In this document: one piece after another, positions 36,823-61,065 of the stretch
How the letters are laid out: every line of letters starts with the position of its first letter
Numbering within the stretch: the first letter of the stretch is position 1
Origin: Alicyclobacillaceae bacterium I2511
GTDB lineage: Bacteria > Bacillota > Bacilli > Alicyclobacillales > Alicyclobacillaceae
NCBI GenBank assembly: GCA_003584005.1
Contig: QXHL01000002.1
Span: 62,001-126,000, forward strand
Length of the DNA: 64,000 bases
Direction of reading: 5' to 3'
Position numbers and translations under genes: made by a program
Notes under the pieces: generated by a model
Database searches by the model: none
What the model was told of the DNA's origin: nothing
Seen by the model: the letters and a program-made list of their open reading frames with translations, nothing else

Positions 36823-36828
36823 AAACAT

Positions 36829-41399: not shown

Positions 41400-41745
41400 T
41401 GCTCTACTTTCTCTTTTCTCAACTGGATTACTTTACGGACCCGCTATCAGTGACAGGTCGGTACAGTACTCCACTTTCAGCGTATACGGCTATTCGTAGC
41501 CCCGCAGGGCTACGAATAGCCGATGGAGAGAAATACAGCCTTCGACTCGCGGGCTGCTTTTTGGAACGCCTCTGGCCCCCATGGGTACCAGTCGACGGGA
41601 TTGTGCGCGTGTTGGAGGAGGTATGAGGATTTCTCGCGGATCAGGCGGTTGGTTTATTGGTGGCTTCGCGTGTTGTTGAGCTTTATGGTTGAATCATCCT
41701 CTCTAGATGGTTTTTCCGTTAGTATATACCGACGCTAAGAAGCAG
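41400..41745 (-). repeat. Island direct repeat, copy C
   Basis: Order as in the other copies: TTTTCTCAACTGGATTAC, CAGTGACAGGTCGGTA, TACTCCACTTTCAGCGTATA, stem-loop GCTATTCGTAGCCC/GGGCTACGAATAGC, then the yyaL 5' segment. In this copy the first codons are degraded (a stop near the start), so it cannot encode the N-terminus. Similarity ends near 41745. Confidence 0.85.
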
Positions 41746-41923: not shown

Positions 41924-43045
41924 TTAGAACGGCAAGTCGTCGTCCTTTCCCACTGGAAGAGTATAAAATCGAGCGTACAAATTATCCAATATTACCCTTC
42001 CGACAACATCGTCCTTCGATTTAATCATTTCATAAAAGTTCTTTACCTTGACAACCTCTATATTTTGGATGGGTATATAGGTGTATCCGCTACGAATGAA
42101 ACACGAAATGAGCTTCGCATTGTTCTGAATGTAATCCTCCAGCATGCTAGTTCTCAAAACATCCCCTAACTTATTAAAAATCACTGGTAGATCATATGAC
42201 GGTTCAAATTCCGAATGAAGACGAGTAACGTGCTGTAACAAGTCATCGGCGAATTTCTGATATATGGATCTCTCAGTGTTGGTAAAATCCAAGTCAACTA
42301 AGGTTCCGGCGGAAATGTCTTGAATAATTTCTTCGAAATGCTGGTACCTAGAGTGAGGATCCGTACGAGTCATTTTGTCTAAAATCGCACTAAATTTAAA
42401 CTCTGCGGAATATTCATCAATGATTTTCTTGTATAGTTTCCCGACAAAATAGATCTCAGATTTATGGTTGTAATCGTGATCAATCGCGACCTCGTTGGGC
42501 AACTCACTTACAGGCCAATTGAGAAGAATACTATTCTTGTCATTGGCATTTTCATCGAGTTTTTTACCAAATCCAAAGTCAATAATCTTCACCATTCCGT
42601 TATTTGTAACCAGGATGTTTTCCGGCCTAATATCTCTATGTAATATACCATTCTGCTCCAGGTGATTAAATCCGTTGATGATCTGTATAAATATTTCGTC
42701 GAAATTGTCGTCAATCAGCATGAAGTGATCATTTATATTGAAACCTGAAATATACTCCATCTGAATGAATCCGGTTTGCTTTTCCGGATAGAGATAATAA
42801 TTGTAGATACGTACGACATTAGGATGTGTGATCAAAAATAAGATTTTTATCTCATCCACAAAACGGGCATACAAATCTTCTATAATGTCTTCATCATATG
42901 GTACAAATTTCTTTATTGCAAACAATAGTTTGGTTGTTGTGTCCTTAACAAGGATTGTCTCGCCAGTACCTCCTTTACCCAAAGGCTTCTCGTATGCAAA
43001 TACCTTCCTGTTAAAGACCAATTCGTCGCCATTTTTCAACGTCAT
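41924..43045 (-). CDS. Serine/threonine protein kinase
   Basis: A 373-residue Hanks-type kinase. The glycine loop is PLGKGGTGETILV, the ATP lysine lies in FAIKKFV, the catalytic loop is GILHRDIRPENILVTN, and the metal motif is KIIDFGFGKK. The kinase domain covers about residues 12-265; the C-terminal ~100 residues are unknown and there is no membrane segment. AAGGGGTGA precedes the ATG. It lies 117 bp downstream of the helicase operon on the same strand. Its base composition is clearly more AT-rich than the helicase genes, which suggests separate acquisition. Kinases occur in BREX (PglW) and other defence systems. Confidence 0.85.
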   Translation of the reverse strand: MTLKNGDELVFNRKVFAYEKPLGKGGTGETILVKDTTTKLLFAIKKFVPYDEDIIEDLYARFVDEIKILFLITHPNVVRIYNYYLYPEKQTGFIQMEYISGFNINDHFMLIDDNFDEIFIQIINGFNHLEQNGILHRDIRPENILVTNNGMVKIIDFGFGKKLDENANDKNSILLNWPVSELPNEVAIDHDYNHKSEIYFVGKLYKKIIDEYSAEFKFSAILDKMTRTDPHSRYQHFEEIIQDISAGTLVDLDFTNTERSIYQKFADDLLQHVTRLHSEFEPSYDLPVIFNKLGDVLRTSMLEDYIQNNAKLISCFIRSGYTYIPIQNIEVVKVKNFYEMIKSKDDVVGRVILDNLYARFYTLPVGKDDDLPF

Positions 43046-43162
43046 TCACCCCTTACGCAGCAATCCTCATAACTATTCGCACTGAAATAATAGATAAGTC
43101 AAACGAGGCGCAACAATTTTTCTGGTAGTGATATACTGAATCCAACACGGTCAGTTCAATGT

Positions 43163-45283
43163 TTAAAGGATCCAATATCTGCTCGCCGTACCGTTCGAAT
43201 ACACATACAACCGTTCCCGCGCACGTGTGGCAGCCACGTAGAGAAGGGACCGTTCCATTCGCTCCACATCGTCGCGTTCCTCCTGACCGAGTTCGTGCCA
43301 GTCTTGCCGAAACGGTGGAATCAGACCTTCATTAACGCTGGCTAAGAAAACGACCCGAAACTCGAGGCCCTTACTACCATGCATGGTTCCGCAACGAACA
43401 CCAGGTTCAGCCGTCATGCCCCCGCGACGAATCATCACAGCGGATAGTCCATCCTGCCGCAACGCCTGTTCATAGCTCTCCACCAACGATCTCGTCCGTG
43501 CCAATACCGCGATATCTTCCACACGGATGCCGAGTTCCAGCAACTGACGAATCTCTTCGCACAAGGCGTTTTGTTCCTCCCGCAGCCCAGTAAAATGTCT
43601 GCGTTCTGGAGCCTGTCCACTCAAGAGCGACACATCGCGTCCAGTGTCAATGCCGCCATCGAGATCGTCAAAGGAGAGTCCGGTCAACACCTGCATGGCC
43701 TGGCGCCGGATCTGTTCTGTTGTTCTATAGTTGATACGCAGCCGCTTAGATCGCTGTCCGCGTACATGGATACCACAACGGCCCAGTATGGCTTGTCTTG
43801 CATAAATTCGTTGATGAGCATCCCCGACGATGAACAAGTCGTTCTCCGCTGGTGGAATGAGAGCTCGTAGAAACCGATACGCCTCTGGATGTAAATCCTG
43901 TCCTTCATCGACGACTGCGGTACGGTACCCGCCAAGCCCGGGTTGTTTCTCCACTGCGGCGCGCGCCCAAACAAACAGGTCAATGCCATCGACAGAGTGG
44001 CGGTCGCGCATCAATTCGCGAAAAGCTTCCACTGTCCGCCAAACCTGCAGACGTTCTGCTCTTGAGATGCGCACCGTCCTGCCAGTGCGCGACACATCTC
44101 GATATTCATTCCAGGTGGTAATGCCATTTTGCTGGATGACCCGCCGATACTCCTCGCGGATGAGCGATAGCTGTTCGAGTCCTTGTCCGCAGCGCGACAG
44201 GGCCTCACGCCAAATCGACTCCAATTCCGAATCCTCGTAAAGAACGCGTAGACCTGTCCCTGTTTGATCAAGAACACGTTTTGCCAAACGGTCGATGGAC
44301 ACCACATCGATTCGTTCCATTTCCTCTTTGGTACACAAGGTGTCTAAGGTTGCTCGAATGCTTTCTGCAAGATTGACTGAAAATGTTGTGAACAACAAGC
44401 GTTCACCCGATTGCAATCGTTCTCTCGCCAATCGTCGAGCCCGGTGCATGGCGACCACCGTTTTGCCCGTACCAGCCCCCCCAAGCACGCGCACGGGGCC
44501 TCGAAAATTCGAGTCCACCAGCGATTTTTGCAACGGATGTAAAAAGATTCGCCAACGTTCCAGCGGTTGGTCCAGGATGGCCGCCAAGTCTTCATCGGAT
44601 TGTAAGACACGGATACTCGCGGACGCATTCCCGTTCAGCAGGGCACGGGCAAACGTAGAGACCTCATCGCCTTGAGCGGCGTCAAGGTCATCATCGTCCA
44701 AATCCCAGGCCTGTTCGATGCGTTCCTGCTCCAGAAACTGCTTCACGTCCTCGTAAGGGTCTCCCGTTGCCAAGCATTGCAAGGCAAGTCCAACATCGAG
44801 TGAGAACTCAGAAATCCTGTCATCTAATTCGTCACTGGTACCAATGGTTCGCAGTAGCGATAGGGAACTTTCCGGAATCCCCAGTTCAACCAGTTGCGCA
44901 TCTGTGAAGGCGGAAAACAGCGCTCCCCTGACCGGAGAATCCGACTCTGCCACAGACCACATGCGAATGGAACCGGATGCAAGATCTGCATCAAATCGCT
45001 TGTTGCGCGCCCATTGATACGCCTTGTCGTGCTGGTCCACCCAGACAAACAACACGGCATCGTCCGCAGGGGATTTGACGAGGATGGCGCGGTGCCCTTG
45101 GGATACTCTTACCGAGTAGAGCTTGTCATCGACGGCTTGGTGAATTGGCTCAACATGAAGCCCTGAAGACCCCGAATGGTGTTGAAATGCACGCACGGTC
45201 TCCCAAGCTCGCCGCCCGTCCGACTTGCTCAGCCGAGATACCGCTTCGATAAACGTAGTCTGAATGCCCACATACATCCTCAT
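43163..45283 (-). CDS. UvrD-type helicase with RelE-like N-terminal domain
   Basis: A 706-residue superfamily 1 helicase. Walker A is GGAGTGKTVVAMHRARRLA (about residue 268), Walker B is VVDEGQDLHPEAYRF (about 450), then VGDAHQRIYARQ, LRINYRTTEQIR, GTMHGSKGLEFRVVFLA and YVAATRARERLYV. The first ~95 residues (SKSDGRRAWETVRAF, YSVRVSQGHRAILV, VLFVWVDQHDKAYQWA) follow the fold pattern of RelE/HigB-type toxins. It overlaps the large helicase gene by 4 bp, so it is part of that operon. It probably unwinds or translocates on DNA in phage defence; the RelE-like domain could be a sensor, a nuclease or a binding module. Confidence 0.85.
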   Translation of the reverse strand: MRMYVGIQTTFIEAVSRLSKSDGRRAWETVRAFQHHSGSSGLHVEPIHQAVDDKLYSVRVSQGHRAILVKSPADDAVLFVWVDQHDKAYQWARNKRFDADLASGSIRMWSVAESDSPVRGALFSAFTDAQLVELGIPESSLSLLRTIGTSDELDDRISEFSLDVGLALQCLATGDPYEDVKQFLEQERIEQAWDLDDDDLDAAQGDEVSTFARALLNGNASASIRVLQSDEDLAAILDQPLERWRIFLHPLQKSLVDSNFRGPVRVLGGAGTGKTVVAMHRARRLARERLQSGERLLFTTFSVNLAESIRATLDTLCTKEEMERIDVVSIDRLAKRVLDQTGTGLRVLYEDSELESIWREALSRCGQGLEQLSLIREEYRRVIQQNGITTWNEYRDVSRTGRTVRISRAERLQVWRTVEAFRELMRDRHSVDGIDLFVWARAAVEKQPGLGGYRTAVVDEGQDLHPEAYRFLRALIPPAENDLFIVGDAHQRIYARQAILGRCGIHVRGQRSKRLRINYRTTEQIRRQAMQVLTGLSFDDLDGGIDTGRDVSLLSGQAPERRHFTGLREEQNALCEEIRQLLELGIRVEDIAVLARTRSLVESYEQALRQDGLSAVMIRRGGMTAEPGVRCGTMHGSKGLEFRVVFLASVNEGLIPPFRQDWHELGQEERDDVERMERSLLYVAATRARERLYVYSNGTASRYWIL

Positions 45284-48200
45284 TCTCTCCCCTCATGAAA
45301 ACTGGACCATTCATCCATCAGCTTTTGCCTGGCATCTGGCGTGTTTTGCACCCACGAAAGATCCCAGACTTGCCATCCCAACCTTGTGGCAACTTCCGCA
45401 TCATCGACCATCTCAGTTGCAAACACAGCAACACGCTCATCTGGCCATGCCAATTCGGCTTCTGCCACAACCCTGCCACCATCCATCAACTCGTAGCCCA
45501 CTTGCGGCTCTGGCAGCCCTAATTCAATGAGTAGCATCGCGGATGTTCGGAACGATTCACCCACCCACTGCAACCATTCCGGCACACGCTCCACATGTCG
45601 GTCGCCCATCCAAACGCGGAAACCGTGAACCGGGCGCAGAATGTCCAACTGACGCCACTCGTCGCGATATTCCCGTAAACTTCGGGTCGTGACAAAGCGA
45701 ACATCGGGGAGCCACTGCAGGATGTTTGACCAGTGCAGAAAGGTACGCCAGGCATCCACAAATAACGGTTTGTTGCGAAACTCCGTGTCATCCTCCAAAC
45801 GGACGACACCGTCGAAACGAAATACATGTTGTGAGGGTCTGAACACCGACATGACAGCCGCAACCGACTGACCTGCAGCAAAGTGATGTTCTGCCAACAC
45901 GACCGATTGTGCCGACTTTCCCCCTGTCTCGACATTGTGAGCAGAATACGGTGCCTTTTCTTCTGCCACCTGCACACGGTCCAGCACGCCGACGGCTGAT
46001 TCAGCGGTTGTCTTGTATTGCGGCTTTGTCACCTGCCCGATGGCCAGCCCCACTACCTGCGAGAACTGCTCCCATTCGGATTCATCTGGATTCATTAGGT
46101 ATCGGGCGAGAAGGTCTAGTCCTGATCCGCGCCATATAGATACTGCAGGTTGACGTAGTTGCAATGCTGTGGCGAAGCTCGTTAACTTTTGTGGAAACTC
46201 CGGATAGGGATTCATCCCAGGTAATTCACTATTATCTCCGATAATATCCCGTCGAGTGATGGAAAACACTCTGTACTCTCCGGACCGACGTAGTGCTTCT
46301 CGTTGCAGGACATCCCTCGGAAAACGGTCAAACTGCCCTTGACCAATATGATAGGTTTCTCCGTCCACGTAAATGGCCACCGGTTTGACATTGCGCAACC
46401 TCGTCAATGCAACAGATTCATCCGCTTCTCCTATAACCGGAACCGCCAAGAAGTCGGGCCGGGTGTGAAACAATGCGGCATCCTGACTGGGCAGACCCTG
46501 GCGGATTAAGTCCCACGCGAACCCGTTTCCGTTTCGCGCCACGGTAATGCGCACACCATACCGCCCCGGGATACTGAGCGCATCCGTTTGCACCTGGGCA
46601 GATCTGTCCAGTGCAGCCAGGTGCTCGACCAACTTCTGCTCTGTCAGGTATTCCAAGTCGCTTTCCTGCATCTCGGGGCGTCCTGCAATGGCATTCGCCT
46701 GCAGGCGCTCGACAATTTTCCAATCCTCTGGTTGTATTCCCGCCAGGGGTTGCAGCAGTTCCACCGCCAATCGGCGCGAGAGAAACGCTTGCTGATACTG
46801 CGACTCATACCTCAGTAAGCAGCGATAACAGGCCTTCTTCTGCGTATTTTGGCAACTGCACTGGCTGAGCGCCCGATAGGCAGCCTGGATGAGTCTGGAG
46901 ATGTCCTCTGGCTGTGCCAACTGACGCAAATAACCTGTTCCACCGGGTACACTGTCGTAGAGCGCAATATAGCGTGCACGCACTGCGCCATTTCCGCCCA
47001 GCGGCTCGTCATAGAAGGCCATCTCGATTTGTCGAGCAGACCCCCCCAAGATTTGACGTAACCCCAATCGCAGTGCAGCCATCCAGTTGACGCTTCGCTC
47101 CTCTACCGCCGCCTCGCCCACGGGCAACAAAAAGCGCAGGACCTCTGACTGAAACTCGCGGTACAGATACACATGGGCCTGATGCTCGTCCGTTGTCGTA
47201 CGACGCTCATTTGTCCCCTGATTGACCATCTGCTCGCTCACGTCGTGCACCCGTACCCGGTCACAAGCGAAGCCCCGTACATGGCGAATGGGCAACTGCC
47301 CCCCATGCCCATCCGGCATGGCCGCCGCTCCACATTTCTCACAAATCGTAAAACCGTTCTTTGGCACAGGTGCACCCGCTGCTTGGCGTTCTCCTCCGTC
47401 TCGATTCGGCTCACCAAAGTTGATTTCTCTCACCGTCACCCGTGAAAACCATTCGAACCCAAACAGTCGATTGCGAAGTTCTGCTGCCATTCCTGGACTC
47501 TCTGTGAATTCGAAAAACAGTCGCACCTGGGCTCGTGAACGCGTGCGTTCCTCTTGGTCATCCCGAATCTTTTCTTCTTGGCTGCTGTCGCGTGCGGAAA
47601 CACGGCGCAATCGCACCATCTGCACAATCTGGCCTGTATCCCGCCACTCCGGCGTTCCACAACTCGGACACGGTCCCACAGGCACGTCCACTTCACGCTC
47701 CATGTGTTGACACACAGGACAGAGCCGCCACCGCTCCAGTCCCTGTTCATGTCCACCCAACCCCAATTGGGTCACAGGCGTTCGTCTGCCGTGAGCGTAG
47801 AATACGCGTCCCGGCGCCAGTTCTCGCAGCGCTTCCCGTTGCGGGCGGTCAAAGGCCTCTACCACACCGCGGCGCCGGTAGCGGCGAATCGTGACCGGAC
47901 GTTCTGGAAACGTGTAATTAGGTAACAATCCCTCATTTGTCCACCATTCCGTGGTGGATTCCCTAAGCAACGAATAGTGACGCGCTCGTGCTTGATAAAC
48001 CGTCCTTTCTAGTTCTTGATATTCCTCGGTACGAATACCCTCCTGAGACTGAAATTCGCGTTCTTGCAGGCGCCGGTTCAAGCGCTCTAAATGTCGGCGA
48101 GCCTCGCGCTCTTCTTCGCGACGCTCACGAATGACCTCATCGATTTCATGGCTCCATTCACCCTCGAAGAAAAATTGTTTGAGTTCAATCACGCTTTCCG

Positions 48201-51200
48201 CACGCAGATGCCCCTGAAACAGTTCCGAAAAATGATCCCATAAAGCCTCTCGATTCGCATCGGCATAGGCATAGAATAGCGTTGGAAATCCCTGTGCAGA
48301 TGCTTCTTCCAGGACCACTCGAGACGCTTGCCGCGGAATTTCTGCTTCTGGACGATCCCGTATCCAGGCGTCGAACAAAAATGCGCGCAGGTGGCGCTTG
48401 AGCACCTCGGGTGCATCCATCGGACAGGTGGGAGACTCCACCTTACCCGCCAACAGTTCTACCGGCGACTCCCAGAAATACTGGTCATGGGGCTGTTCTC
48501 GGACGACTTGCCCAATCAAGGAGCGCCCCGATGAGCGCCCGGCCCGGCCCATCCGTTGCACCCGATTGCTCAGCGTTGGAGGCACCCCAGCCAAAAATAT
48601 GGTGGACAAATCGCCAATGTCGATGCCCATCTCCATTGTCGGTGTGCAAATCAGCACATTCAAAGGCTGTGGCTTTCCCGTCTCAAATCGCTGTTCCATG
48701 AGGCGCCGTTCCTCATTCGGTACGAGACTGGAGTGCTCTTTCACAGCCGGGGGCAATACGCGGGACTCTTCGTACAGTCTCGTGGCGTAGCGACGACGGC
48801 GACGCTCTGTCTCAACCAATGTCCCCCCACAGCGATAGGCAATACAACGAACATGCGCCACAAAAATCGGAACATCCTCCGTGGCCACGGTGACTTCGGC
48901 ATGACACTTTGTACAGACGAGTCTTGCTGTGGTGGTTGCAGTATTCAGCGCATCTGGGCGCAAACCGTAGGTCGAGTCCGCCCCATGATGGCGAACGTCA
49001 ACGACTTTTGCCTCCTGTAGCGCTATAAATAACGTATGGACCACATCCCCTGCATCCACGTCGGAAACGAACCCGGTCTCCTCCAGTGGCAGGGTGAGTG
49101 TGGCCTTCATATACAACGCGAGCCAGGAGTTCGCCGCACCAAACAATGAATCCAACCCATCCGATGGACGCCCCGTGGTATAAAAAGACGGAATGCGCGT
49201 GGAACACACATAATCTTGATTCTGGTCCCGAGAGAGTAGATAAGGCTCACCACCGCCCTCCCGGAAACCATCCAACAACGGGTGGGAGATGCCGCCATTC
49301 ACCACCATCCGGTGCAAAATACCCAGCGCCAAGCCATGGACACGGTCCCGCAACTTGCCATCCTGGTTTAGTTGCGGATGCCGCTCCCGCAATGTGGCAT
49401 ACGCCAAATCCACCGCCTGCGCCATACGCACCGAGTCTTGCTGTAAAGTGGCCACTCCCGTTTGATACAAGGACCGACCGAGTCGCGCATGGAGGCCAAA
49501 TTCCTGTAACACACGCATGGAAACAAAACGTAACACACGTGTCCACGTTTCATCGGTCCACGTCTTCAACTCTCTTGGATAGCGTCCGGCAATCTGCTCA
49601 TCGTCTTCGTCTTCCTCCACGAAGGCCCGTACAAAATCTCGGTCACCCAGGCTGCTGCGCCAAACAGACGGCCAATCCACAATGGCATCTGCGAGGGTTG
49701 CCCCGGCAGGCGTCATCCTCAACTCACGGACAAGCGCTGTCCGAAGCAGAGAATTTTTTGCTCGATGCTGAATGAACCCGGCCAAAAGCGCAGAATCTTG
49801 GACAGAGTCGACAAACGAGAGAACTTTCGGATCCTCCACATGGTCGGACGACAACACATGTCCCGCGAACGTCGCGCCAATGCTCGCTCGACGCATGGAA
49901 ACGGGCAACATCGCGTCCGCCTGTCTGCAATGCGGACACGTACGGGCACCGAGCCGCTTGCCGCCGAATCCCGGTCGATGAACATATGGCATGGCCACGT
50001 ACACTGGAATGGCGTCCGTTATCTCCCGTTCAAGCAGATCTGCCCGTGGTGTGAGGTACGCACTCTGCACATGTCCATGCAAGGGCTCCGATTCTGTGAA
50101 TGGATAAAGATAGACAATCCGTTCACGGTCTGGCGTCGGCAACCGATTTGGCTCCGTGAACGCGGGGATAATGTCCGCCGGGTTGGTCAGCAAACGCTCG
50201 GAGTTGTCTGTTTGTCGCAAAGTCACCCACCCGGAGGCCCCACAGCGGTTGCAGACAATCATTGGAAATGCGGCAGTTTGGTGCGCCGGAGAACCGAAAT
50301 GCAACGGATAACCGCTTGTCACTGAAGACTCAACTTGCTCTTCTCCAACCCCGTCCTCTATCCCTGATATGTCGCGTCCTGACCAGGAAAAACTTGGTGC
50401 TTCACGGATTTCCCGGACGAGTCCCCGCAACTCACGCACCCACACCTGCACCTGAATGGGCAAAAGAGGGCGAATCCCACCCTCCCACTTCGCTTCAGAA
50501 ACGACGCTCAAAAAGGACAGCAAGTATTGCTCCGCATCGGCTTCGCTCCGTAGATCAAACTCAGAAGTAAACCGCTGCACGAGTTTTGCCCACGTAACCG
50601 GGTCGCCAGAAGCGACGCGGCATAAGACATGAAACCAACTGTGGCGACGCAATCGCTGCGGCAAATCTTCTGCAGACGCTGCACCAAACCAGAGTACGGT
50701 TTGGCGACGCACGTAATCCGCCGCGGGTTCCCGGGCATGGGGGCGAAGCTCTTCCGTCAAATCTGGGATTTGCTCTTCATGAAGCGGTAACAAGTACTCT
50801 GATAGGGCGGGCCGTGCTTCCTGGACAATGGCTTCTCGCGCAAACGCTGTGCCAAATACCGTTCCGGCGTAGTCGAGCAGTTTCTTGAAGGCCTGCTCGC
50901 TGCCGTCGCCCAGCGTGGCCGAGGTGCCCACCGGGCACAATGTACCGTCCGGTATCCGCAAGCGGCCCCGCAGGCGCCGCACCAAACAAGCAATATCTGC
51001 GCTTTGCACCCCATCGTACGTGTGCAGTTCATCCAGCACCAAATAGCGCAAGGTTTCTGATCCGTTTTGCGACCACAGCGGCCAGTCCACCTTGCGCAGG
51101 AGAAGCAAATCCAGCATTTTATAATTGGTCAACAGGATGTCGGGGGGAAACTTGCGCAATAGTTTGCGGTCTTCAATCAGCCGCTCTGCCGTCATCACCC

Positions 51201-51750
51201 GACTGACATCCCCACCTGCAGCCGTGGCACGTTCCCCGTGACCGACGTACAGCCCCGCGAGGAGGGATTTCGTCGCCTTATTCTGATGCAGGATGCCCGC
51301 CAAGCGTTTCGCCTGATCTTGCGCTAGGGCATTCATCGGATATAAAATAATGGCCTTAATCCCCTGTTGGCCCGCCTCACGCATGCGAATGCAGTGGTCG
51401 ACAATGGGATAGAGAAACGATTCCGTTTTCCCCGACCCAGTCCCTGTCGTCACCAGCGTTGGCTGCGGCCCATCCGCGCGGGTGGACGAAAGGCGTTCAA
51501 ACGCCTTCAATTGGTGCTCGTACGGCAAAAAGGGCGGGTGGAGAGCCGTGAGCGGACTCTCATACCCTGTTTCCACTTGGCGAAAAGGCAACCTCGCCTG
51601 GACATACGGTCCATGAAACATGCCATTGACCGGATCGCGCAAAAAATCAAGCAGAGCCGCCGACAGGCGGTCGTCTCGAAACGGAAAGATGGTGTCGATG
51701 TATTCCAACAGAGTTGCCTGCCACTCCTGGGCCACCAGTGCCGGTATCAT
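45280..51750 (-). CDS. Giant DEAD/DEAH helicase with zinc/DUF1998-like regions (DrmA+DrmB or DruE-like)
   Basis: A 2156-residue superfamily 2 helicase. Walker A is TTGTGSGKTESFLYP (about residues 101-115), motif II DELHTYDG (240), motif III SATLGDG (277). A ~700-residue insert with CNRCG and CPHC pairs follows. The second lobe has CTPTMEMGIDIGDLS and RVQRMGRAGRSSGRS (about 1050-1090). Cysteine clusters follow at about 1350 (CPVC/CPSC), 1473 (CEKC) and 1640 (CSCQ...CYRCLL), the last typical of DUF1998-type regions. Residues ~1760-1850 (RPDFLAVP, VAIYVDGETYH, REALRRSGEYRVFSITRRDI) look like a DUF559/Vsr-type nuclease fold. It overlaps both neighbours by 4 bp. Confidence 0.82.
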   Translation of the reverse strand: MIPALVAQEWQATLLEYIDTIFPFRDDRLSAALLDFLRDPVNGMFHGPYVQARLPFRQVETGYESPLTALHPPFLPYEHQLKAFERLSSTRADGPQPTLVTTGTGSGKTESFLYPIVDHCIRMREAGQQGIKAIILYPMNALAQDQAKRLAGILHQNKATKSLLAGLYVGHGERATAAGGDVSRVMTAERLIEDRKLLRKFPPDILLTNYKMLDLLLLRKVDWPLWSQNGSETLRYLVLDELHTYDGVQSADIACLVRRLRGRLRIPDGTLCPVGTSATLGDGSEQAFKKLLDYAGTVFGTAFAREAIVQEARPALSEYLLPLHEEQIPDLTEELRPHAREPAADYVRRQTVLWFGAASAEDLPQRLRRHSWFHVLCRVASGDPVTWAKLVQRFTSEFDLRSEADAEQYLLSFLSVVSEAKWEGGIRPLLPIQVQVWVRELRGLVREIREAPSFSWSGRDISGIEDGVGEEQVESSVTSGYPLHFGSPAHQTAAFPMIVCNRCGASGWVTLRQTDNSERLLTNPADIIPAFTEPNRLPTPDRERIVYLYPFTESEPLHGHVQSAYLTPRADLLEREITDAIPVYVAMPYVHRPGFGGKRLGARTCPHCRQADAMLPVSMRRASIGATFAGHVLSSDHVEDPKVLSFVDSVQDSALLAGFIQHRAKNSLLRTALVRELRMTPAGATLADAIVDWPSVWRSSLGDRDFVRAFVEEDEDDEQIAGRYPRELKTWTDETWTRVLRFVSMRVLQEFGLHARLGRSLYQTGVATLQQDSVRMAQAVDLAYATLRERHPQLNQDGKLRDRVHGLALGILHRMVVNGGISHPLLDGFREGGGEPYLLSRDQNQDYVCSTRIPSFYTTGRPSDGLDSLFGAANSWLALYMKATLTLPLEETGFVSDVDAGDVVHTLFIALQEAKVVDVRHHGADSTYGLRPDALNTATTTARLVCTKCHAEVTVATEDVPIFVAHVRCIAYRCGGTLVETERRRRRYATRLYEESRVLPPAVKEHSSLVPNEERRLMEQRFETGKPQPLNVLICTPTMEMGIDIGDLSTIFLAGVPPTLSNRVQRMGRAGRSSGRSLIGQVVREQPHDQYFWESPVELLAGKVESPTCPMDAPEVLKRHLRAFLFDAWIRDRPEAEIPRQASRVVLEEASAQGFPTLFYAYADANREALWDHFSELFQGHLRAESVIELKQFFFEGEWSHEIDEVIRERREEEREARRHLERLNRRLQEREFQSQEGIRTEEYQELERTVYQARARHYSLLRESTTEWWTNEGLLPNYTFPERPVTIRRYRRRGVVEAFDRPQREALRELAPGRVFYAHGRRTPVTQLGLGGHEQGLERWRLCPVCQHMEREVDVPVGPCPSCGTPEWRDTGQIVQMVRLRRVSARDSSQEEKIRDDQEERTRSRAQVRLFFEFTESPGMAAELRNRLFGFEWFSRVTVREINFGEPNRDGGERQAAGAPVPKNGFTICEKCGAAAMPDGHGGQLPIRHVRGFACDRVRVHDVSEQMVNQGTNERRTTTDEHQAHVYLYREFQSEVLRFLLPVGEAAVEERSVNWMAALRLGLRQILGGSARQIEMAFYDEPLGGNGAVRARYIALYDSVPGGTGYLRQLAQPEDISRLIQAAYRALSQCSCQNTQKKACYRCLLRYESQYQQAFLSRRLAVELLQPLAGIQPEDWKIVERLQANAIAGRPEMQESDLEYLTEQKLVEHLAALDRSAQVQTDALSIPGRYGVRITVARNGNGFAWDLIRQGLPSQDAALFHTRPDFLAVPVIGEADESVALTRLRNVKPVAIYVDGETYHIGQGQFDRFPRDVLQREALRRSGEYRVFSITRRDIIGDNSELPGMNPYPEFPQKLTSFATALQLRQPAVSIWRGSGLDLLARYLMNPDESEWEQFSQVVGLAIGQVTKPQYKTTAESAVGVLDRVQVAEEKAPYSAHNVETGGKSAQSVVLAEHHFAAGQSVAAVMSVFRPSQHVFRFDGVVRLEDDTEFRNKPLFVDAWRTFLHWSNILQWLPDVRFVTTRSLREYRDEWRQLDILRPVHGFRVWMGDRHVERVPEWLQWVGESFRTSAMLLIELGLPEPQVGYELMDGGRVVAEAELAWPDERVAVFATEMVDDAEVATRLGWQVWDLSWVQNTPDARQKLMDEWSSFHEGRE

Positions 51751-54700
51751 GCGGTCGCCTCCCGCAGCAAGCGCGAGAAGGCGCGATAGGCTTGCCGCAA
51801 GTCGTCTTCCCGATGACAGTTGTCAAACGGTTCAGCGGTGCCTGGAAACATCGGCGGATAAGGTGCTTGCAGCGCCGCTTCATGGGCGATGAGTGCCTTG
51901 CCGCGTGGGTGGGCGGCGAGATCGTGATTGATTTGGTACTGGAGCCGATGCGCCTGAACCACAGGTTTCGGTACCAACCGCCCCGTCGCGTCGTAGAAAC
52001 GGTCTTCGCGTTCGTATTTTTGCAGTACGGGGAAATAGACGCGATAGAGTGTGAGGAGTTCCTCCTCGGACAGGCCATACGCGAGTGCCGTGAGTGCGTC
52101 CAATTCCACCAATGCCTGGCGTCGCTCATAGTCGGTGCGCAGGGCCACATCGCGGTTCCACACGGACGTGAGGTCAGACCAGGAAGGGAGGCGCGGGTCA
52201 GACTTGACAAAGCCGTCCCCCGTGAATGCGGGGTCATACAGGGCCTCCCACAGGTCCTGGTAGTGGACGGTTAGGCAGTTCAAACGCAGCGCCCGGGCAA
52301 CCATGGGATCACACAGTCGGGGGTCTGTGGGGAGTGGAAGTTGCTCCAGTTCGGAGTAGATGTGACTCCGGCCTGTCGTTTTGATGAAGAAATCAGCCAC
52401 CACTGAGAAGGTCACTCCCGCGAATACTGTCATAGCATACAAATCATTCATGACGATGGCCCGTACCGTATGTACATGTGCCACACCCGGAGGAAGTATA
52501 GCGGAAATCAGGGTCCGTTCTGACGTTGGACCAACCATATTCCGATGCGCCAACCGATAATACGCCAAGAACGACTGGTCCCCAAAGCGCGGCGCCCGCT
52601 GATGATACTCCTCCATGTCGACCGCCGGAACATAGTTTGTCCTGGGCAAATAGTCATCCGGGATTGCGGTAAGATCAATCTCCGAATAGTCCTGGTTGTG
52701 CTTGCAGCCTTCGTTCGGATTTTTGAACAGCGGGTTACCCACATGAAGGTGCGGTCCGTTTAGGATTAGACGGTCCACTTGTCCAGGGTATTGGGTATCC
52801 CGTCGAATGGTGTGTGTCGTTTTCACATCTGCCGTCTCATGCCAACACTCTGTCCGCGCGTACTCCACCCCGCTCGCACTCAGCGACGCCCCCGCGTCCG
52901 CCAAACGTTCCAGGACAGCAAGAATCTCCTGACTGTGCACGGCAGGCAGGGGTTGCTCCAAGGGATTTACAGCCTGTCCAGTGCCAAACAACCGTCCGAA
53001 AAGCGAAAGTTCCTTTACCGCTATCGTGACAACCCGGTGGCGATGCCCCCGCGTCTCCCATTCGTCCTGGGCGGTCTTGTAGCCAGGTACCGGGCCGTGG
53101 CCGTGATGCGCCAGGGACCAGTCAATGGTTTCCGGGAGGAAGAGATTGCTCATATGTTGGAACGATACCTGCTCCGCCGAATGGGCGCGATAGATGTTAA
53201 TGCTGAACCGAACAAGATGATGGATGTCCTGAAACAACTGCTTCTCATTCACAAATTGATAGTGGGCCAATAACCGGGGGTATAATTCCGACCGAAACGT
53301 CCCGCCGTTCGATTCATCGTAAACTCCGTCCGGATGTAGTAATCCCACCACGCCCCTGGCCGACCCCACCCGCCAAGTCTGGCCAATGAACGCCTTGTAG
53401 AGATTCGATTTTGACCCGCTCAGTTCGCTGTACAGGGCAGGGGCATTGAGGAAGGCCTGCATGCCACTGCGAGAAACGTACAGGTGCAAATAAGCCTGCC
53501 GCGCCTCGTCGTTCTGAAGAATATCCGCGCGTTTGCGGGCCACCGCATCGGCCCCTTCGCCGCGCACGCCAATCAGCGGATCGAAATCGGCAAGCACATC
53601 CGCTTCTTTCCACTCCACAGGCACCCAGGGTGGATTGCCAAGGATGATGTCAAAGCCGCCCCGCTGTGCGAATACTTCGCCAAACGCCAATTCCCAGTGA
53701 TGAAACCTCTGTTCTTCGGCGACCCGTCTTGACACAGCCAGCCATGGATACCGTTGCACCACATCATCTACCGTGTGATTCTCGGCAGTTGCCGCATCAA
53801 GCAACGCCTCCACCCCTCGCAGCCACTCGGCATGGGTTGGCAGAAGAGCCGCTTCCTCAATGGGCCAGAACCAAAACGATGCCCACAGGTCAAGAATATA
53901 CTGTATGATCCGATAAGCACTGTGTTCCCCTTGCTGCAGTTTTACGAGTAGTTCCTTTCGTCTCGCGATACTGAGCGTGTTGACTTCATCCTTGCCTCGT
54001 ATCTGCGGCCACACCGTCAGTTGGTCATCGACCTTCGCCAGCAGCGCTTGGCGCGCGACAACTGCCCGGTCCCACAAGGCATCGATGCGGTCGGACAAAT
54101 CGGATAAAAAGCGAATTTCCTCATCATCAAAACGCTCGGGGAAACCACGTTTCCAGTCACGGATGATTTGCAACTCTGCGTGACACAAGCCCGTTATCGC
54201 CTTGTCCCCTTCGTAGTCGCACATACCCTTGTCGGGTAACAAGAAGTGGTAGACGGCTCCCTGTGCAGACTTCACCCGAGTGGGTCCGGTTCCGCGCCAT
54301 TGACCCGTCTGCAGAGTCTGTGCGGCATACACGGCACGCCAAGCGCCAACCAGGCTGTTGCCGTTGGCTAACCGCACTTCATACCATGGACCAGCTTGCC
54401 TTGCGTGTAGGGTGTTCAACCACAGGCTAATTCCCGCCAGTTCCACCGCCAGTGCGTTTTTGTCCACACCATACACACGCTTCGCCGCGAGGAACGCCTT
54501 CACCCGCGCCAATTCCCCGCGCCGCTCATCATCTGGCAAGGGGCGCACGCCTGCTTGCGCTAGTTCCTGTTCTTTTTTATCCAAATAGGCGTTCGCCAAT
54601 TGTTCCACCGCTGTGTTCAAAAAAGCACCAGAACCCATCGCGGGTTCGAGAATATGTAAATTCAGGATCTCATCGGCAGATAATTCCGGCACAATCTGTG

Positions 54701-56285
54701 CAAGCGTATGGCGCACCACAGCCTCCGTCAGCTTCGCGGGCGTGTAGTAACTCGCTGAATCCGCGCGCTCGCGGCCGCGAAGTCGGAAAATGAAAGTGCC
54801 TTTCTCATAGTGGACGATTTGACGCACGCCGTCCACTTCGCGGGAAACAAATTCGTCTTGTCGCAATCCGAGACGAGCGACTTCTCGCTCGGGAACAAAG
54901 TAAGTTTGTGCCAATTCATCCACATCGTCCTGTGCACGCTTCACTTCGACGAGGGGCTCCTCCGCGAAAAACCCCGCGTAGGACAGCAAACCCTCGTAGA
55001 TACTGCCAAGATCATTCGTACTCAGTTGGGCGTAACTGATGCGCTCCCGGCCATTGGCGCCCCCCTTGCTCAGGGACAGCTTTTGCAGAATGTCTTGCAA
55101 GACAAAGTTGCGGATACGAATGGAGGACAAGAGCGGCGTAGCCGCCGAATCGAATAGCCAACTGCGGAGTCCAAAGAGCGTAAACCCACCGTCCAAAAGC
55201 TGAGCATCGTCGAGATTGACACTGGCCTGGAGACCTGTGGCATACGGCGGTTCTCCTTCGTTCATGAGCCGGAACAATTCGGTTAAGCTGTCGTGAAAAT
55301 AGGTGCCATTGCGCGCCCCATCTGTCACCAGCGGCTGCAGTTCCAAGTCCCTTAGGGCTTCCAGACTGTAGGCTGTGCGGTACTCCTCACTCTTCATGGG
55401 AACAATCTCCAACTCCGCATCCCGCGACTCCACATAAAGCAGAAACAAAATCCGGTAGACGTAGCGCAGGCATTCGGCCGTGAGCCGTCCCGCCAAGGCC
55501 GCGTCGGCCAAATACCCACGGTGCGTCTGGCGGCAGAAATCCACATACTCCTGTCCGAGCAGTTCCACCGCAACGCGCGCGGTGTATTTGAGATCTTTTG
55601 AAACACCCGTCGCATGCCGTCGCGACGCCTCTTCCAGCGCGTCGTGATGACCGGTTTTGCTGAGCAGTCGGGCATGCAAAAGCCCGATGACGAGCTTAAC
55701 CTCTCCACTGCCAAGCGGGCCAAGCAGAGCGTCCCAATCCACAATGAGATACCGTCTGTCCGCCCATTTGGCTGCATCAAACAGGAGAGCGTACCGCCCG
55801 CACAAGGCCACAATGCGCCGTTTACGGTCTGGCAAGCGAAACAGCGCACCCACGCACTGCTCAAGAGTCAATTCTGGACTCTCTTGAACAGGGACGACCC
55901 ACTGCGTTTCCAATAGGCTTTCTTCAGCGTGTACATAGGGACCCATGAGGAGTATCGGGGATTCTGGATCTTCTTGACCCTCCGGTGGCAACAGGGTCTC
56001 GATGGTGTGGAGGTCATCCTGCAGTGCGATTTCCGTGTTGACCCAATCCAGATACCCGAGCCATTCGAGCAGCGCACCATGCCAGTCTTCCTGCTTTTCC
56101 GACAATGCCTGCCCCACTTCCCGACTCTTCAGGGTGCGGTACATTGGAGCCAATTCGCGCAGGCTGCGGACGGACGTTTCCCAGTTCGGAAAGTGGACAC
56201 GGAGTGCTTCCTCTATATCTCTTGAAAAACGCGTGTCCAAATAAAATGGACTATAGAAATCATTCACATTGATGATGGCGTTCAT
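51747..56285 (-). CDS. Large N6-adenine DNA methyltransferase (DrmMI/PglX-like)
   Basis: A 1512-residue class I methyltransferase. The target-entry signature SASYYTPAKLTEAVV is followed by the SAM motif LHILEPAMGSGAFLNTAVEQL (about residue 545), YGVDKNALAVELAGISLWL, and the catalytic motif IILGNPPWVPVEW (about 880), which marks N6-adenine methylation. The ~500-residue N-terminal and ~600-residue C-terminal parts probably give target recognition. There is no separate HsdS-type subunit or clear nuclease motif. It overlaps the SNF2 gene before it and the giant helicase after it by 4 bp each. It likely marks self DNA for the defence operon. Confidence 0.88.
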   Translation of the reverse strand: MNAIINVNDFYSPFYLDTRFSRDIEEALRVHFPNWETSVRSLRELAPMYRTLKSREVGQALSEKQEDWHGALLEWLGYLDWVNTEIALQDDLHTIETLLPPEGQEDPESPILLMGPYVHAEESLLETQWVVPVQESPELTLEQCVGALFRLPDRKRRIVALCGRYALLFDAAKWADRRYLIVDWDALLGPLGSGEVKLVIGLLHARLLSKTGHHDALEEASRRHATGVSKDLKYTARVAVELLGQEYVDFCRQTHRGYLADAALAGRLTAECLRYVYRILFLLYVESRDAELEIVPMKSEEYRTAYSLEALRDLELQPLVTDGARNGTYFHDSLTELFRLMNEGEPPYATGLQASVNLDDAQLLDGGFTLFGLRSWLFDSAATPLLSSIRIRNFVLQDILQKLSLSKGGANGRERISYAQLSTNDLGSIYEGLLSYAGFFAEEPLVEVKRAQDDVDELAQTYFVPEREVARLGLRQDEFVSREVDGVRQIVHYEKGTFIFRLRGRERADSASYYTPAKLTEAVVRHTLAQIVPELSADEILNLHILEPAMGSGAFLNTAVEQLANAYLDKKEQELAQAGVRPLPDDERRGELARVKAFLAAKRVYGVDKNALAVELAGISLWLNTLHARQAGPWYEVRLANGNSLVGAWRAVYAAQTLQTGQWRGTGPTRVKSAQGAVYHFLLPDKGMCDYEGDKAITGLCHAELQIIRDWKRGFPERFDDEEIRFLSDLSDRIDALWDRAVVARQALLAKVDDQLTVWPQIRGKDEVNTLSIARRKELLVKLQQGEHSAYRIIQYILDLWASFWFWPIEEAALLPTHAEWLRGVEALLDAATAENHTVDDVVQRYPWLAVSRRVAEEQRFHHWELAFGEVFAQRGGFDIILGNPPWVPVEWKEADVLADFDPLIGVRGEGADAVARKRADILQNDEARQAYLHLYVSRSGMQAFLNAPALYSELSGSKSNLYKAFIGQTWRVGSARGVVGLLHPDGVYDESNGGTFRSELYPRLLAHYQFVNEKQLFQDIHHLVRFSINIYRAHSAEQVSFQHMSNLFLPETIDWSLAHHGHGPVPGYKTAQDEWETRGHRHRVVTIAVKELSLFGRLFGTGQAVNPLEQPLPAVHSQEILAVLERLADAGASLSASGVEYARTECWHETADVKTTHTIRRDTQYPGQVDRLILNGPHLHVGNPLFKNPNEGCKHNQDYSEIDLTAIPDDYLPRTNYVPAVDMEEYHQRAPRFGDQSFLAYYRLAHRNMVGPTSERTLISAILPPGVAHVHTVRAIVMNDLYAMTVFAGVTFSVVADFFIKTTGRSHIYSELEQLPLPTDPRLCDPMVARALRLNCLTVHYQDLWEALYDPAFTGDGFVKSDPRLPSWSDLTSVWNRDVALRTDYERRQALVELDALTALAYGLSEEELLTLYRVYFPVLQKYEREDRFYDATGRLVPKPVVQAHRLQYQINHDLAAHPRGKALIAHEAALQAPYPPMFPGTAEPFDNCHREDDLRQAYRAFSRLLREATA

Positions 56286-59149
56286 GGCCGACCCTCCTCC
56301 AGACCCGTGAACCTGGCACCCACACGCAAGATGGGCTGCTCTTCCACGGCGAACAAATCCTCCAGGTTCTTCCTCGTCCTATGGTACGTCTCATCCCAAT
56401 AGGCCCGCTGACGTTGCAAGCGTGCACGCTGTGCGGGCGGCGGCGTCGGTCCAGAATGTTTCATTGATGAATCCAATACTTCCTGATACCACGACTCGAC
56501 CCGGACGAGTTCGGTCTCTACCTTCGCCCTCAAGTCCGCCAGATTCGTCGCAGCACGATCCGTTGCATAGGCGTTCGCCGCTGACAACACAAGTGCGATT
56601 CGCCCATCACGAGAAGGGGTAACTGGGGTAACTGGGGTAACTGGGGTAACTGCGGTCCCCGCATTCACCCAAGGGACGGATACAAGCGGATCGGCATTCC
56701 CTGCAAAAGGCCGCACCGATAGCCTTTGACTGTCATCCGTCACCACAAGCCACTCGGCATACGCAGGATATCCGCTCTTCGTAGTTAACAACGCCTGAAT
56801 TAAGTAGTGGCACACCCCGACGCGAAGGTCCGAAAGGGCAATATCTGGCACCGATTGTGCCGAAAAAAAAGCTGCTGCCCGATCCAGCATCCAATCCGCC
56901 ACCGGGTGAACATCCCACAACAAATCTTCCGTAGACCAGTCGCCGCGATTCGTGGCGTTCTGAATATGACGCAACGCCCGTTGAACATCCGTGGTCAGGC
57001 GGATTTGTCCTCGCTGCAGAACACTGGCCGGGAGAGAACGCAAGCGAGCGTGCAAATCCTCCACGCCTGTGAGGGTCACCGTCTTTTGCGCAGCATCCAC
57101 TTCAATGCGCTCGTACTTGCGGCGTTCGTCGTCAAAACCCGTCCGTGTCCGGTAGCGTGCTCGTTCTTCCGCCAACTCGCCCTGTAGGTCGCGAACCAAT
57201 GGCAACCAATCGTCGTAGAGACGCGGAACATCCAGAGACAGAATGGACTCCGACTTTGTCGTTGGCACCAGTAAATCCGAAAAATCTACCGACCAATCCG
57301 GAATCAATTCGGTCAGCGAACGCCCCTCCGCAATGCCTTGCTCCAAATATGCTTCCTCTTCCTCAGGTGTGAACAGCTTCAACGCACTCGCCGGGTCCCC
57401 GAGATTCAGTTCGATACTACGCGCCTTCTCAACCAATTTGTCGACAATGCGGGTATCAGCCGCATGAGCCTCGGATGCCATGGCCAAATAACGAATCTCC
57501 GGCGTTTCCATTTGTCCAAACCGGTCAATTCGCCCGTTTCGCTGTTGCAGGCGGATGAACGACCAGGGGATGTCGTAATGAATCATGTGATGACAACGAT
57601 GATGCAGATTGACGCCCTCTGAGGCGACATCCGACGCGAGAAGAAGGCGAATCGGTGAGTCCTCTTCGTTAAACTCACGCACAATCGCTTCCTGTTCCGT
57701 ATCCGCCAACTGCGCTGTGAATTCACGAATCGCTCCATCCGGACACTGCAAGTCCTCCTGCAACGCGGTTTGCAATGCACGCAGGGTTTCAATTCGTTCC
57801 GAAAACACGACAACCCGCGGCGATTTTGGCTTCCCAGTAAATTCCCATGCTAGAAGGAGTTTTTTTAACTCCTGGTATTTGGACGTATCCCGAATCGAAA
57901 GCGTATTCTGCTTCGCAGCAAGTTCCCCGAGTCGTTCAAGATCTGCTTGCCATGCATACAACACGCTCTTTGGAGCCGTCGCATTTTCCACCCTTCGGGT
58001 CAGTGTGATCATGCGATGACGCAATGTTTCTCGCAACGCCTCTGGGCTAGAGAGAAACGATTTGAGCAAAGTTACGGAAAACAACCCATCCGGTCGAGCC
58101 ACAGTTCCTGCAATGTCATGGGTGACAAGGTCGGCCAAAGCTCCCAATACGCCATCTTCACCGCCTGTGGTCAAGCAGGTAATTTTGTCGTCATGTGCCT
58201 GCTGAAATCCTGGCGTCTGAACAAGCACATCGGACTTGAATCGGCGCACCACCAGGTGCTCAATGTCATCCTTGCAAAGCGTTTCTGCATCGGCAACCGC
58301 GGTGGGATCGAGCATCCTCATCAGGGAAGCAAAACTCTCCGGTTTCCCATTGTGGGGCGTGGCTGAGGTGAGAATCAAACTGTGGCTGTGATTGGCCAAC
58401 AGATTGGCCAATTGGTTGCGCTCCGTGCTGGCGTTTGCGGCGTTGTGACACTCGTCTATCCAGACGATATCCCACTGGCATGCCTCCAAGTAACGCCGAT
58501 ACTGTTCATCGTTCTTCAGGGTATCAACGGAAATAATGACTTTATCATAATAATGGAAAGGATTTTTGTTCCGCGGAATGTCGCGACGAATACGGGCGAT
58601 TCCCACCGAATCCAAACGCATCAAAGGTATGGTGAACCTTGTCCACAGTTCCTTCTGAATCTGCTCCAGCGTGGAACGCATGGCCACCACCAGAACCCGC
58701 CGCCCCCGGCCACGGCGGATGAGCTCTGCTAGTAAAATGCCTGCCTCGATGGTTTTTCCTAGTCCTACACCGTCGGCAATGAGCAGCCGCGGCCGTACCA
58801 ATGACAGCGCTCGTTGCGCCGGGATGTATTGATACTCGCTTTCCTCCATCGCCGCCTGTCCCCGTGTCGTTATCCCCGGTTGCGTCAATGGCGTACGCGT
58901 GAGTAGGGCGTGCAAAAACAAGCGAGATCGACGATAGCCTGGTGAATCATCTCGGACAAACTTCACATCTTCTGGTGAAAGGACCTTCACGGTGTCGAGT
59001 GAATCAAGAAATGTCGCCTCGTAATCCCGGACCGTTTCACTTAACCCCGTCACATGCAGCGCAAACACATTGTGTTGTACGGGACGCGAATCACGGACCA
59101 GCCACTCCTCTCCGCGAATTTGAACTCGGGAACCCGGTGCATATGTCAA
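56282..59149 (-). CDS. SNF2-family helicase (DrmD-like), first gene of defence operon
   Basis: A 955-residue superfamily 2 ATPase. Walker A is LIADGVGLGKTIEAGILLAE, motif II WIDECHNAAN, motif III SATPHNGKPESF, and the second lobe has LLLASDVASEGVNLHHRCH and QQRNGRIDRFGQ, typical of HepA/RapA-like proteins and of DISARM DrmD. A VTP tripeptide repeat (four copies) lies near residue 850. TTG at 59149 has AAAGGGG eight bases upstream; an ATG at 59191 extends the frame by 14 residues but lacks a site. It overlaps the methyltransferase by ATGA. Confidence 0.85.
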   Translation of the reverse strand: MTYAPGSRVQIRGEEWLVRDSRPVQHNVFALHVTGLSETVRDYEATFLDSLDTVKVLSPEDVKFVRDDSPGYRRSRLFLHALLTRTPLTQPGITTRGQAAMEESEYQYIPAQRALSLVRPRLLIADGVGLGKTIEAGILLAELIRRGRGRRVLVVAMRSTLEQIQKELWTRFTIPLMRLDSVGIARIRRDIPRNKNPFHYYDKVIISVDTLKNDEQYRRYLEACQWDIVWIDECHNAANASTERNQLANLLANHSHSLILTSATPHNGKPESFASLMRMLDPTAVADAETLCKDDIEHLVVRRFKSDVLVQTPGFQQAHDDKITCLTTGGEDGVLGALADLVTHDIAGTVARPDGLFSVTLLKSFLSSPEALRETLRHRMITLTRRVENATAPKSVLYAWQADLERLGELAAKQNTLSIRDTSKYQELKKLLLAWEFTGKPKSPRVVVFSERIETLRALQTALQEDLQCPDGAIREFTAQLADTEQEAIVREFNEEDSPIRLLLASDVASEGVNLHHRCHHMIHYDIPWSFIRLQQRNGRIDRFGQMETPEIRYLAMASEAHAADTRIVDKLVEKARSIELNLGDPASALKLFTPEEEEAYLEQGIAEGRSLTELIPDWSVDFSDLLVPTTKSESILSLDVPRLYDDWLPLVRDLQGELAEERARYRTRTGFDDERRKYERIEVDAAQKTVTLTGVEDLHARLRSLPASVLQRGQIRLTTDVQRALRHIQNATNRGDWSTEDLLWDVHPVADWMLDRAAAFFSAQSVPDIALSDLRVGVCHYLIQALLTTKSGYPAYAEWLVVTDDSQRLSVRPFAGNADPLVSVPWVNAGTAVTPVTPVTPVTPSRDGRIALVLSAANAYATDRAATNLADLRAKVETELVRVESWYQEVLDSSMKHSGPTPPPAQRARLQRQRAYWDETYHRTRKNLEDLFAVEEQPILRVGARFTGLEEGRP
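56616..56651. repeat. Four tandem copies of GGGGTAACT inside the SNF2 gene
   Basis: Four perfect 9-bp units in a row encode a Val-Thr-Pro repeat on the minus strand. The unit length keeps the frame, so copy number can change without breaking the protein. It probably forms a flexible linker. Confidence 0.95.
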
Positions 59150-59191
59150 GTGGAAAACCCCTTTGATTTTCCCCATGCAGAGGAAAGGCAT

Positions 59192-59574: not shown

Positions 59575-59683
59575 GGAATTGAACTCGAATCGCTGCGGGA
59601 CGGTGTGAATCGGCTCAAGGACTTGGCGGATCGAATACAGGCGAATCGTGGGTGAGGTCAACATTCGGGTGAAATTCCTATGA
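59575..59683 (+). pseudogene. Serine recombinase C-terminus, internally deleted remnant
   Basis: ELESLRDGVNRLKDL matches the fragment at 35300 almost exactly, then jumps (after an internal deletion of about 200 bases) to sequence equivalent to LRIEYTR and EVNIRVKFL just before a stop. It shows that element 3 once carried a related integrase at the same relative position. Confidence 0.75.
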
Positions 59684-59699: not shown

Positions 59700-60254
59700 C
59701 TACTGAATCCCCTTCGAACTCTGATAGCTCTCGATGGTACGCAACTTCGCCAATTGAATTTCCATTACGATATCTTCCACCGAAACACCGCGCTCGGAGG
59801 CTTCGCGGTCAGCAACATGAAGTCGGTCATCAATTTCCGCAATTTCATGTAAGCAATCGGAAAACAGTTGAGCGGGCAAGATTCGCGTTTCATGGTGATA
59901 TTGCAGCGCTTGGAGTCGTTTATCGCCCGTAATCAAAAAATCTGCCAATGCCTCCTTCGCCGTTGCCAAAATAAAATCGTCCTCTCGATGACTTGCGACT
60001 CGGGGTACAAACAGTGGGATAGGATGAACGACTGAAGTGGCTCTCAAACTCATCACAAACAAGCGAACCTGTTCACGACTCAGCCGCGACGAGAAATAAG
60101 GGTTCGCCAGGGTCCGCTCCAATTCATCCAAAATAGGCTTCGATATATGCAGATGAAATTGCCCTGACAACCACGCTTCCCGAATGTCCGCAATCGGTCC
60201 ACGTCCGGCTCGAATGGCTGAAGCCAAAATATTCGTGTCCAATACGACCCGCAT
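59700..60254 (-). CDS. PIN-domain toxin (VapC-like)
   Basis: A 184-residue protein with the PIN pattern: MRVVLDTNILASAIRAG (first acidic residue), KPILDELERTLANPYF, SHREDDFILATAKEALADFLITGDKRLQAL (in parts) with the later aspartates. It should cut RNA. Its ATG overlaps the antitoxin stop (TAATG). The C-terminal ~45 residues are an extension beyond the PIN domain. It is the toxin of the pair near the right end of island element 3. Confidence 0.85.
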   Translation of the reverse strand: MRVVLDTNILASAIRAGRGPIADIREAWLSGQFHLHISKPILDELERTLANPYFSSRLSREQVRLFVMSLRATSVVHPIPLFVPRVASHREDDFILATAKEALADFLITGDKRLQALQYHHETRILPAQLFSDCLHEIAEIDDRLHVADREASERGVSVEDIVMEIQLAKLRTIESYQSSKGIQ

Positions 60255-60568
60255 TATGCCTCTCCCTCAGTACCTTGCCCAGCTAACCCTGAGCGTACAC
60301 CAGATAGAGCGCGTTCCACTTCCTTGTTGAATTCATCCTCGGGAACGTCAACGAAAGCATCCCGCATTTGATCCATCACACGGCGCAGGTCCATCAGACG
60401 ACTGTCACGCTGCTTCAGCCATTCCAAATCCTCCGGGCTCACCAGACCAGCAACTGGAACACCGCTCTTTTCTACAACCACTCGCGCCTGATCCCGCGAC
60501 ACCAAATTGATGACTTCACTCCAATGTTCCCTTACATCTGAGGATTTCATAACCTGTTGCTCTTTCAT
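60254..60568 (-). CDS. Phd/YefM-type antitoxin
   Basis: A 104-residue protein with the Phd/YefM N-terminal pattern VMKSSDVREHWSEVINLVSRD and ARVVVEKSGVPVAGLVSPEDLEWL (in parts). The C-terminus is acidic and should bind the toxin. The ATG at 60568 follows a G-rich site; the open frame extends upstream without family similarity. It overlaps the PIN toxin by one base. Confidence 0.85.
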   Translation of the reverse strand: MKEQQVMKSSDVREHWSEVINLVSRDQARVVVEKSGVPVAGLVSPEDLEWLKQRDSRLMDLRRVMDQMRDAFVDVPEDEFNKEVERALSGVRSGLAGQGTEGEA

Positions 60569-60724
60569 GCCCCACCCCGATCCGTACGTTATCGTACACT
60601 TTTGTACAGCTATTATAACATGACAGGTTGTGCTATGCGAGTAGGAAATCGCGGAGAGAGGTAACTCAAAGTGAAGGGGAGAAGTACGAAACAACCAAAT
60701 GTAAATGAATATCTTTACTTCTTG

Positions 60725-61065
60725 AAAACATCTCGGCTGGATTCGTTTATGGACCTGTTATCAGTGACAGGTCGGTAAAGTACTCCACTTTCAGCGTATA
60801 TTGCTATTCGTAGTCCCACAGGGCTACGAATAGTCGATGGAGAGAAATATAGCCTTCGATTCGCGCGCGACTTTTTGGAACGCCTCTGGACCCCATGGGT
60901 ACCAGTCGACTGGGTTGTGCGCGTGTTGCAGGAGGTATGGTGACTTTTCGTGGATCAGGCGGTTGGTGAATTTGTGACCGCCGTTGTTGGAGTTCACGAG
61001 GGAATCATCCACTCTGGTGAGATTTACCGTTCGTATAGACCTGGGTGGCAGAAAGTATTTGATGA
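60725..61065 (-). repeat. Island direct repeat, copy D (right boundary)
   Basis: Same order as copies B and C: GAAAACATCTCGGCTGG, the GGACCTGT/ACAGGTC inverted repeat, the core CAGTGACAGGTCGG, TACTCCACTTTCAGCGTATA, the stem-loop and the yyaL 5' segment from a GTG at 60997 to a stop after FLSIDYS. Similarity ends near 61065. It is the last copy in the window and the likely right edge of the stacked elements. Confidence 0.85.

Follow-up and report, generated by a model that had tools for sequence, protein, structure and literature searches.

The window (the whole analysed stretch of 64 kb from Alicyclobacillaceae bacterium I2511) contains four large co-directional genes on the minus strand, named here armA, armB, armC, and armD, and a Ser/Thr kinase ORF (Table 1). 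All three junctions between the four genes are ATGA overlaps. An earlier note on this DNA had described four same-direction genes with 4-bp ATGA overlaps, and all of the ORFs were recovered at those places; the protein families that it had proposed (SNF2, N6-adenine methylase, DEAD helicase with a zinc part, UvrD, and Ser/Thr kinase) agreed with the profile matches. ArmA matched SNF2/RapA helicases, with DrmD as its best PADLOC and NCBIfam match, and ArmB matched N6-adenine methylases (Eco57I, type IIG, and DrmMI). ArmC was recognized as a DEAD helicase with MZB/DUF1998, its best PADLOC matches being DruE3 (top) and DruE1, and ArmD as UvrD (PADLOC GajB). The PADLOC 2023 library, which predates ARMADA, spread the four proteins over four systems (DrmD, type IIG, DruE3, and GajB) and no single one, so the operon looked like a hybrid. 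Promoter and terminator scans gave counts not above what shuffled sequence allows.

Table 1. Coordinates of the operon genes, their domains, and the bordering repeats in the window.
Feature	Position	Strand	Characteristics
armA	56282..59191	minus	969 aa; BrxHII/RapA (SNF2)-like helicase; Walker A K146, Walker B D246
armB	51747..56285	minus	1512 aa; PglX-like N6-adenine DNA methyltransferase; EPAMGSGAF motif (G551), NPPW (N884)
armC	45280..51750	minus	2156 aa; YprA-like SF2 helicase with Zn-binding MZB/DUF1998; Walker A K108, Walker B D240
armC RecA1 (DEAD domain)	50908..51519	minus	residues 78-281, Pfam DEAD
armC RecA2 (Helicase_C)	48532..48744	minus	residues 1003-1073, Pfam Helicase_C
armC MZB/DUF1998 Zn-binding domain	46816..47079	minus	residues 1558-1645, Pfam MZB
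armC putative Vsr-like nuclease region	46231..46653	minus	about residues 1700-1840; D1766, D1796, H1801, D1813, R1817
armD	43163..45283	minus	706 aa; GajB-like UvrD helicase, N-terminal RelE-like domain; Walker A K274, Walker B D459
RelE-like domain of ArmD	44999..45283	minus	residues 1-95; AlphaFold2 model, Foldseek and VIA matches to RelE/YafQ/YoeB
Ser/Thr kinase ORF	41924-43045	minus	373 aa; Pfam Pkinase
Degenerate yyaL 5'-end and hairpin repeat, low-coordinate border of operon block	41417..41734	minus	
Degenerate yyaL 5'-end and hairpin repeat, high-coordinate border of operon block	60731..61045	minus	

ARMADA was defined as a "missing link" between DISARM and Druantia in the preprint of Bell et al. 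2025 (PMC12458937). Its type II comprises a BrxHII/RapA-like ArmA, a PglX-like methylase ArmB, a YprA-like helicase ArmC with a predicted C-terminal Vsr nuclease, and a GajB-like helicase ArmD with a RelE-like N-terminus, and the gene order ArmA-ArmB-ArmC-ArmD is nearly always kept (PMC12458937). In E. coli, all four type II genes and most active sites were required, and protection was non-abortive, with infected cells surviving (PMC12458937). The window matches this type gene for gene, both the set and the order armA-armB-armC-armD being present, and its ArmD combines the GajB-like helicase core with the RelE-like N-terminus. An E. coli plasmid locus (L002) encoding the same four proteins was used as a reference set; its proteins carry K136/D236 (ArmA), G605/N971 (ArmB), K110/D234 (ArmC), and K266/D454 (ArmD) at the numbers mutated in PMC12458937. 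Over most of their length, the window proteins aligned to those of L002 with identities of 37% (ArmA), 38% (ArmB), 30% (ArmC), and 39% (ArmD). All eight mutated residues are conserved in the window, namely Walker A/B of ArmA, ArmC, and ArmD together with the SAM-site glycine and NPPW of ArmB.

The phylogeny of ArmC was built from the helicase core only and comprised 26 proteins. The 12 type II rows formed one group with 100/99 support, which included the window ArmC on one branch with its closest relative, L041, while five type I rows formed a separate group (92/83 support). Plain YprA and the DruE of E. coli Druantia III were placed outside the type II clade; the exact place of DruE is unsure because its branch is long.

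Two structural models, each built from an alignment of five sequences, were obtained for the terminal regions of ArmD and ArmC. The RelE-like start of the UvrD protein, suspected in the earlier note, was confirmed in the AlphaFold2 model of ArmD residues 1-95, for which the best Foldseek match was 1wmi (E 2.6e-4) and VIA gave a Z of 10.7 to Thermus RelE 2khe; the fold of this model by itself does not establish RNase activity. The low-confidence model of ArmC residues 1680-2156 (mean pLDDT 64) gave no Foldseek match at E below 0.001, so the case for the candidate nuclease activity is one of motif conservation and of the prediction in PMC12458937. A profile search of PDB sequences with the C-terminal region returned chance-level matches only. 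The putative nuclease residues listed in Table 1 were invariant in 11 aligned proteins, a D, D, H, D, R pattern that, judged by sequence, would be as expected for the Vsr domain predicted in PMC12458937.

The nearest described operons are those of ARMADA type II in E. coli NCTC 12900 and ATCC 8739 (PMC12458937), which share with the window the four genes, their order, the domains, the RelE-like part of ArmD, and the eight tested catalytic residues; the differences lie in the 30-39% protein identity, in the host, which belongs to Bacillota, and in the surroundings, a Phd/PIN pair upstream and an unrelated-looking kinase downstream in the window. ARMADA type I has the YprA-like helicase, BrxHII-like helicase, and PglX-like methylase in common with the window, but the ArmC of the window does not fall within the type I group, and the window has armD, which is tied to type II in PMC12458937. 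DISARM class 1 has SNF2-type DrmD-like and DrmMI-like proteins as well; unlike its separate DrmA and DrmB genes, however, the DEAD, Helicase_C, and MZB domains of the window occur in one 2156-aa ORF, in line with the DrmA-like helicase and DrmB-like DUF1998 fusion proposed in the earlier note. The absence of the phospholipase D gene drmC was also borne out, no PLD family being found among the eight proteins scanned at 41924-61946. Druantia type III shares a giant YprA-like helicase, and DruE3 is the best PADLOC match of ArmC, whereas the window additionally has methylase and SNF2 genes; armC is flanked by armB and armD, neither of which matched the DruH profile among the matches listed, and so no DruH-DruE pair was seen. 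The UvrD helicase core of ArmD is related to GajB of Gabija, but the window has no GajA and ArmD bears the RelE-like N-terminus.

We consider it nearly certain that armA-armB-armC-armD is an ARMADA type II anti-phage operon, and we hold this to be the best explanation of the locus with only slightly less assurance. The earlier note rightly read the four genes as one defence operon and placed the set between DISARM and Druantia, where PMC12458937 has its "missing link". It went on to regard the operon as an undescribed branch between these systems and hence a new one, a view that the division of the proteins by PADLOC 2023 among DrmD, type IIG, DruE, and GajB might favour; exactly this gene set and order were, however, described and tested in PMC12458937, and the window ArmC falls within the type II clade. 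That reading was rejected on the published set and order, and we leave it a very slight chance. Since a single, already named system accounts for all four proteins and for their gene order, which is the finding that the earlier note itself had given as contrary to novelty, the operon is not new: it is a further member of ARMADA type II.

The survey of gene neighbourhoods showed that the A-B-C-D order is conserved in other genomes. It recurs in E. coli, Aulosira, Pseudanabaena, Gemmobacter, Microvirga, and Tsukamurella (with armC split in the last), and also in L043 and L044/L071, two genomes from the phylum of the host. One scan of genome contigs gave a single relative. The closest relative, L041, is of the same class and has an ArmC 46% identical to that of the window; its contig ends inside armD. 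The strict ArmC cut-off was passed by 3 of the 398 sampled genomes of the host's phylum, the host itself counted, and the system is therefore uncommon in that phylum. Among 5426 complete E. coli genomes, 518 contain the armC stretch of E. coli; in an O157:H7 strain, this stretch adjoins Zorya II and a DruE-like helicase gene, as PMC12458937 reports for its strains; no Zorya or Druantia neighbour was recognized in the window. Several plasmid loci differ in arrangement. On a Cylindrospermopsis plasmid (L034, 10001-26168), the type II genes run C-D-A-B and so depart from the strict order described for this type. A Thermus thermophilus plasmid (L037, 9455-16976) carries an ArmC of the type I group directly followed by an ArmD homologue with a RelE-like N-terminus, and thus ArmD is not confined to type II. 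On a Tsukamurella plasmid (L004, 1-20383), two genes with DISARM-like annotation, one for a helicase and another for DUF1998, immediately precede the ARMADA type II set, in which armC is split in two.

The two border repeats listed in Table 1 enclose the operon, the kinase, and a Phd/PIN toxin-antitoxin pair at 59700-60694, directly upstream of the operon. Further copies of the repeat were found at 33021-33468 (native yyaL) and 36524-36921 (degenerate), and relatives also carry extra yyaL 5'-end/hairpin copies, up to several per genome; judged from their sequences, the extra copies would fit marks of repeated insertion beside yyaL. No intact integrase was identified for the island. The earlier note had placed the operon in a mobile island beside toxin-antitoxin modules: the repeats on both sides of the block support the island, and the Phd/PIN pair is indeed adjacent, but mobility did not find the same support. 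A short ORF at 35295-35636 and a 45-base repeat (93%) at 59581-59681 look by eye like the C-terminal end of a putative large serine recombinase; Pfam gave a weak coiled-coil match only.

We take the Ser/Thr kinase to be, most likely, a gene in its own right within the same island. It is encoded on the same strand as armD, 117 bp downstream, and its top PADLOC match is MAD6, a likeness of sequence only, so that a five-component ARMADA variant might be imagined, with the kinase in a regulatory role such as kinases have in some BREX-type and MADS systems. Its GC content, however, is 37.3% versus 54.5-56.5% in the four operon genes, and the plasmid homologues listed for it, most of them ordinary protein kinases, share less than 30% identity with it. 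Moreover, no kinase homologue adjoins any other ARMADA copy in the panel, where the contigs of the two nearest relatives, L041 and L042, end inside armD. We therefore regard a five-component variant as improbable, and as a shade more improbable the narrower idea that the window copy and L041 form a separate ARMADA type II branch which recruited the kinase as a fifth, regulatory component. The kinase, named along with the system in the earlier note, found no support as one of its components.

The native yyaL gene (31092-33287, minus strand; DUF255, Pfam Thioredox_DsbH) lies outside the operon coordinates. Its reading frame is broken within 33021-33287, where IGYS is followed by TAG and a 54-base gap, and reading resumes at TCHWCHVM with a long intact ORF; a 14-bp hairpin starts in the codons ahead of the TAG stop. 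Among the loci read, many members of the family to which the host belongs have their interruption at this codon too, and a protein search indicated a split at that residue across most of the host's order, with uninterrupted yyaL in a few genomes (G016, G017, G024, G028, and G058). The gap, of 36-61 bases, varies in length and frame, and the long ORF beyond it remains open. Across 13 variants, pairing in the hairpin amounts to 95%, one pair being changed on both sides in four and several G-U changes occurring, which suggests pairing in RNA. GGAG-like sequence is often found ahead of the point where reading resumes, and the gap is often flanked on either side by TCG, in four genomes by TGG instead. 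Of 18 distinct loci, 11 have no in-frame ATG, GTG, TTG, CTG, or ATT ahead of the CHWC motif; counted by rows, with two loci entered twice, the figure is 13 of 20. In its layout, the locus is similar to the T4 gene 60 bypass, and the interruption is possibly a candidate for translational bypassing. Its rivals are re-initiation at a downstream start (an in-frame ATG follows GGAG in four loci), a split protein, and an integration scar. A brief search of an open subset of papers gave no account of yyaL as a place of integration or an instance of bypassing. The interruption looks more novel than the operon. Elsewhere in the window, a c-di-AMP riboswitch (ydaO/yuaA leader) was detected at 18099-18258 with 65.5 bits.

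As to the mode of action, homology points to a direct, non-abortive, restriction-like attack on phage DNA, to which we give roughly even chances. ArmB would recognize self DNA and probably methylate it, while ArmA and ArmC would act as ATP-driven motors loading on unmodified or replicating phage DNA, which the putative nuclease at the ArmC C-terminus would cut. ArmD may assist DNA processing, with its RelE-like domain possibly serving as an RNase or an interaction module. We infer that the present copy may be active and that its proteins may divide the labour as proposed. Methylation-based self/non-self marking may be incomplete or wrong, because the ArmB SAM-site mutant G605A loses protection only in part (PMC12458937). 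The same operon might instead work with ArmB chiefly as a DNA-recognition subunit and sense replication intermediates (ssDNA), like Druantia III. The partial effect of G605A would agree with this, and DruE is proposed to act on ssDNA-containing intermediates (PMC13192584); on the other hand, the ArmB NPPW mutant N971A abolishes protection (PMC12458937), and the window ArmB retains both the SAM-site glycine and NPPW. We see this alternative as a tentative one, somewhat less probable than the restriction-like attack.

Defence libraries of 2023 assign ARMADA genes variously to DISARM, Druantia, type IIG, and Gabija; ARMADA loci are therefore easily read as novel. The window represents a divergent, apparently intact copy of ARMADA type II in a host far from E. 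coli, which helps to map the residues that the system needs.
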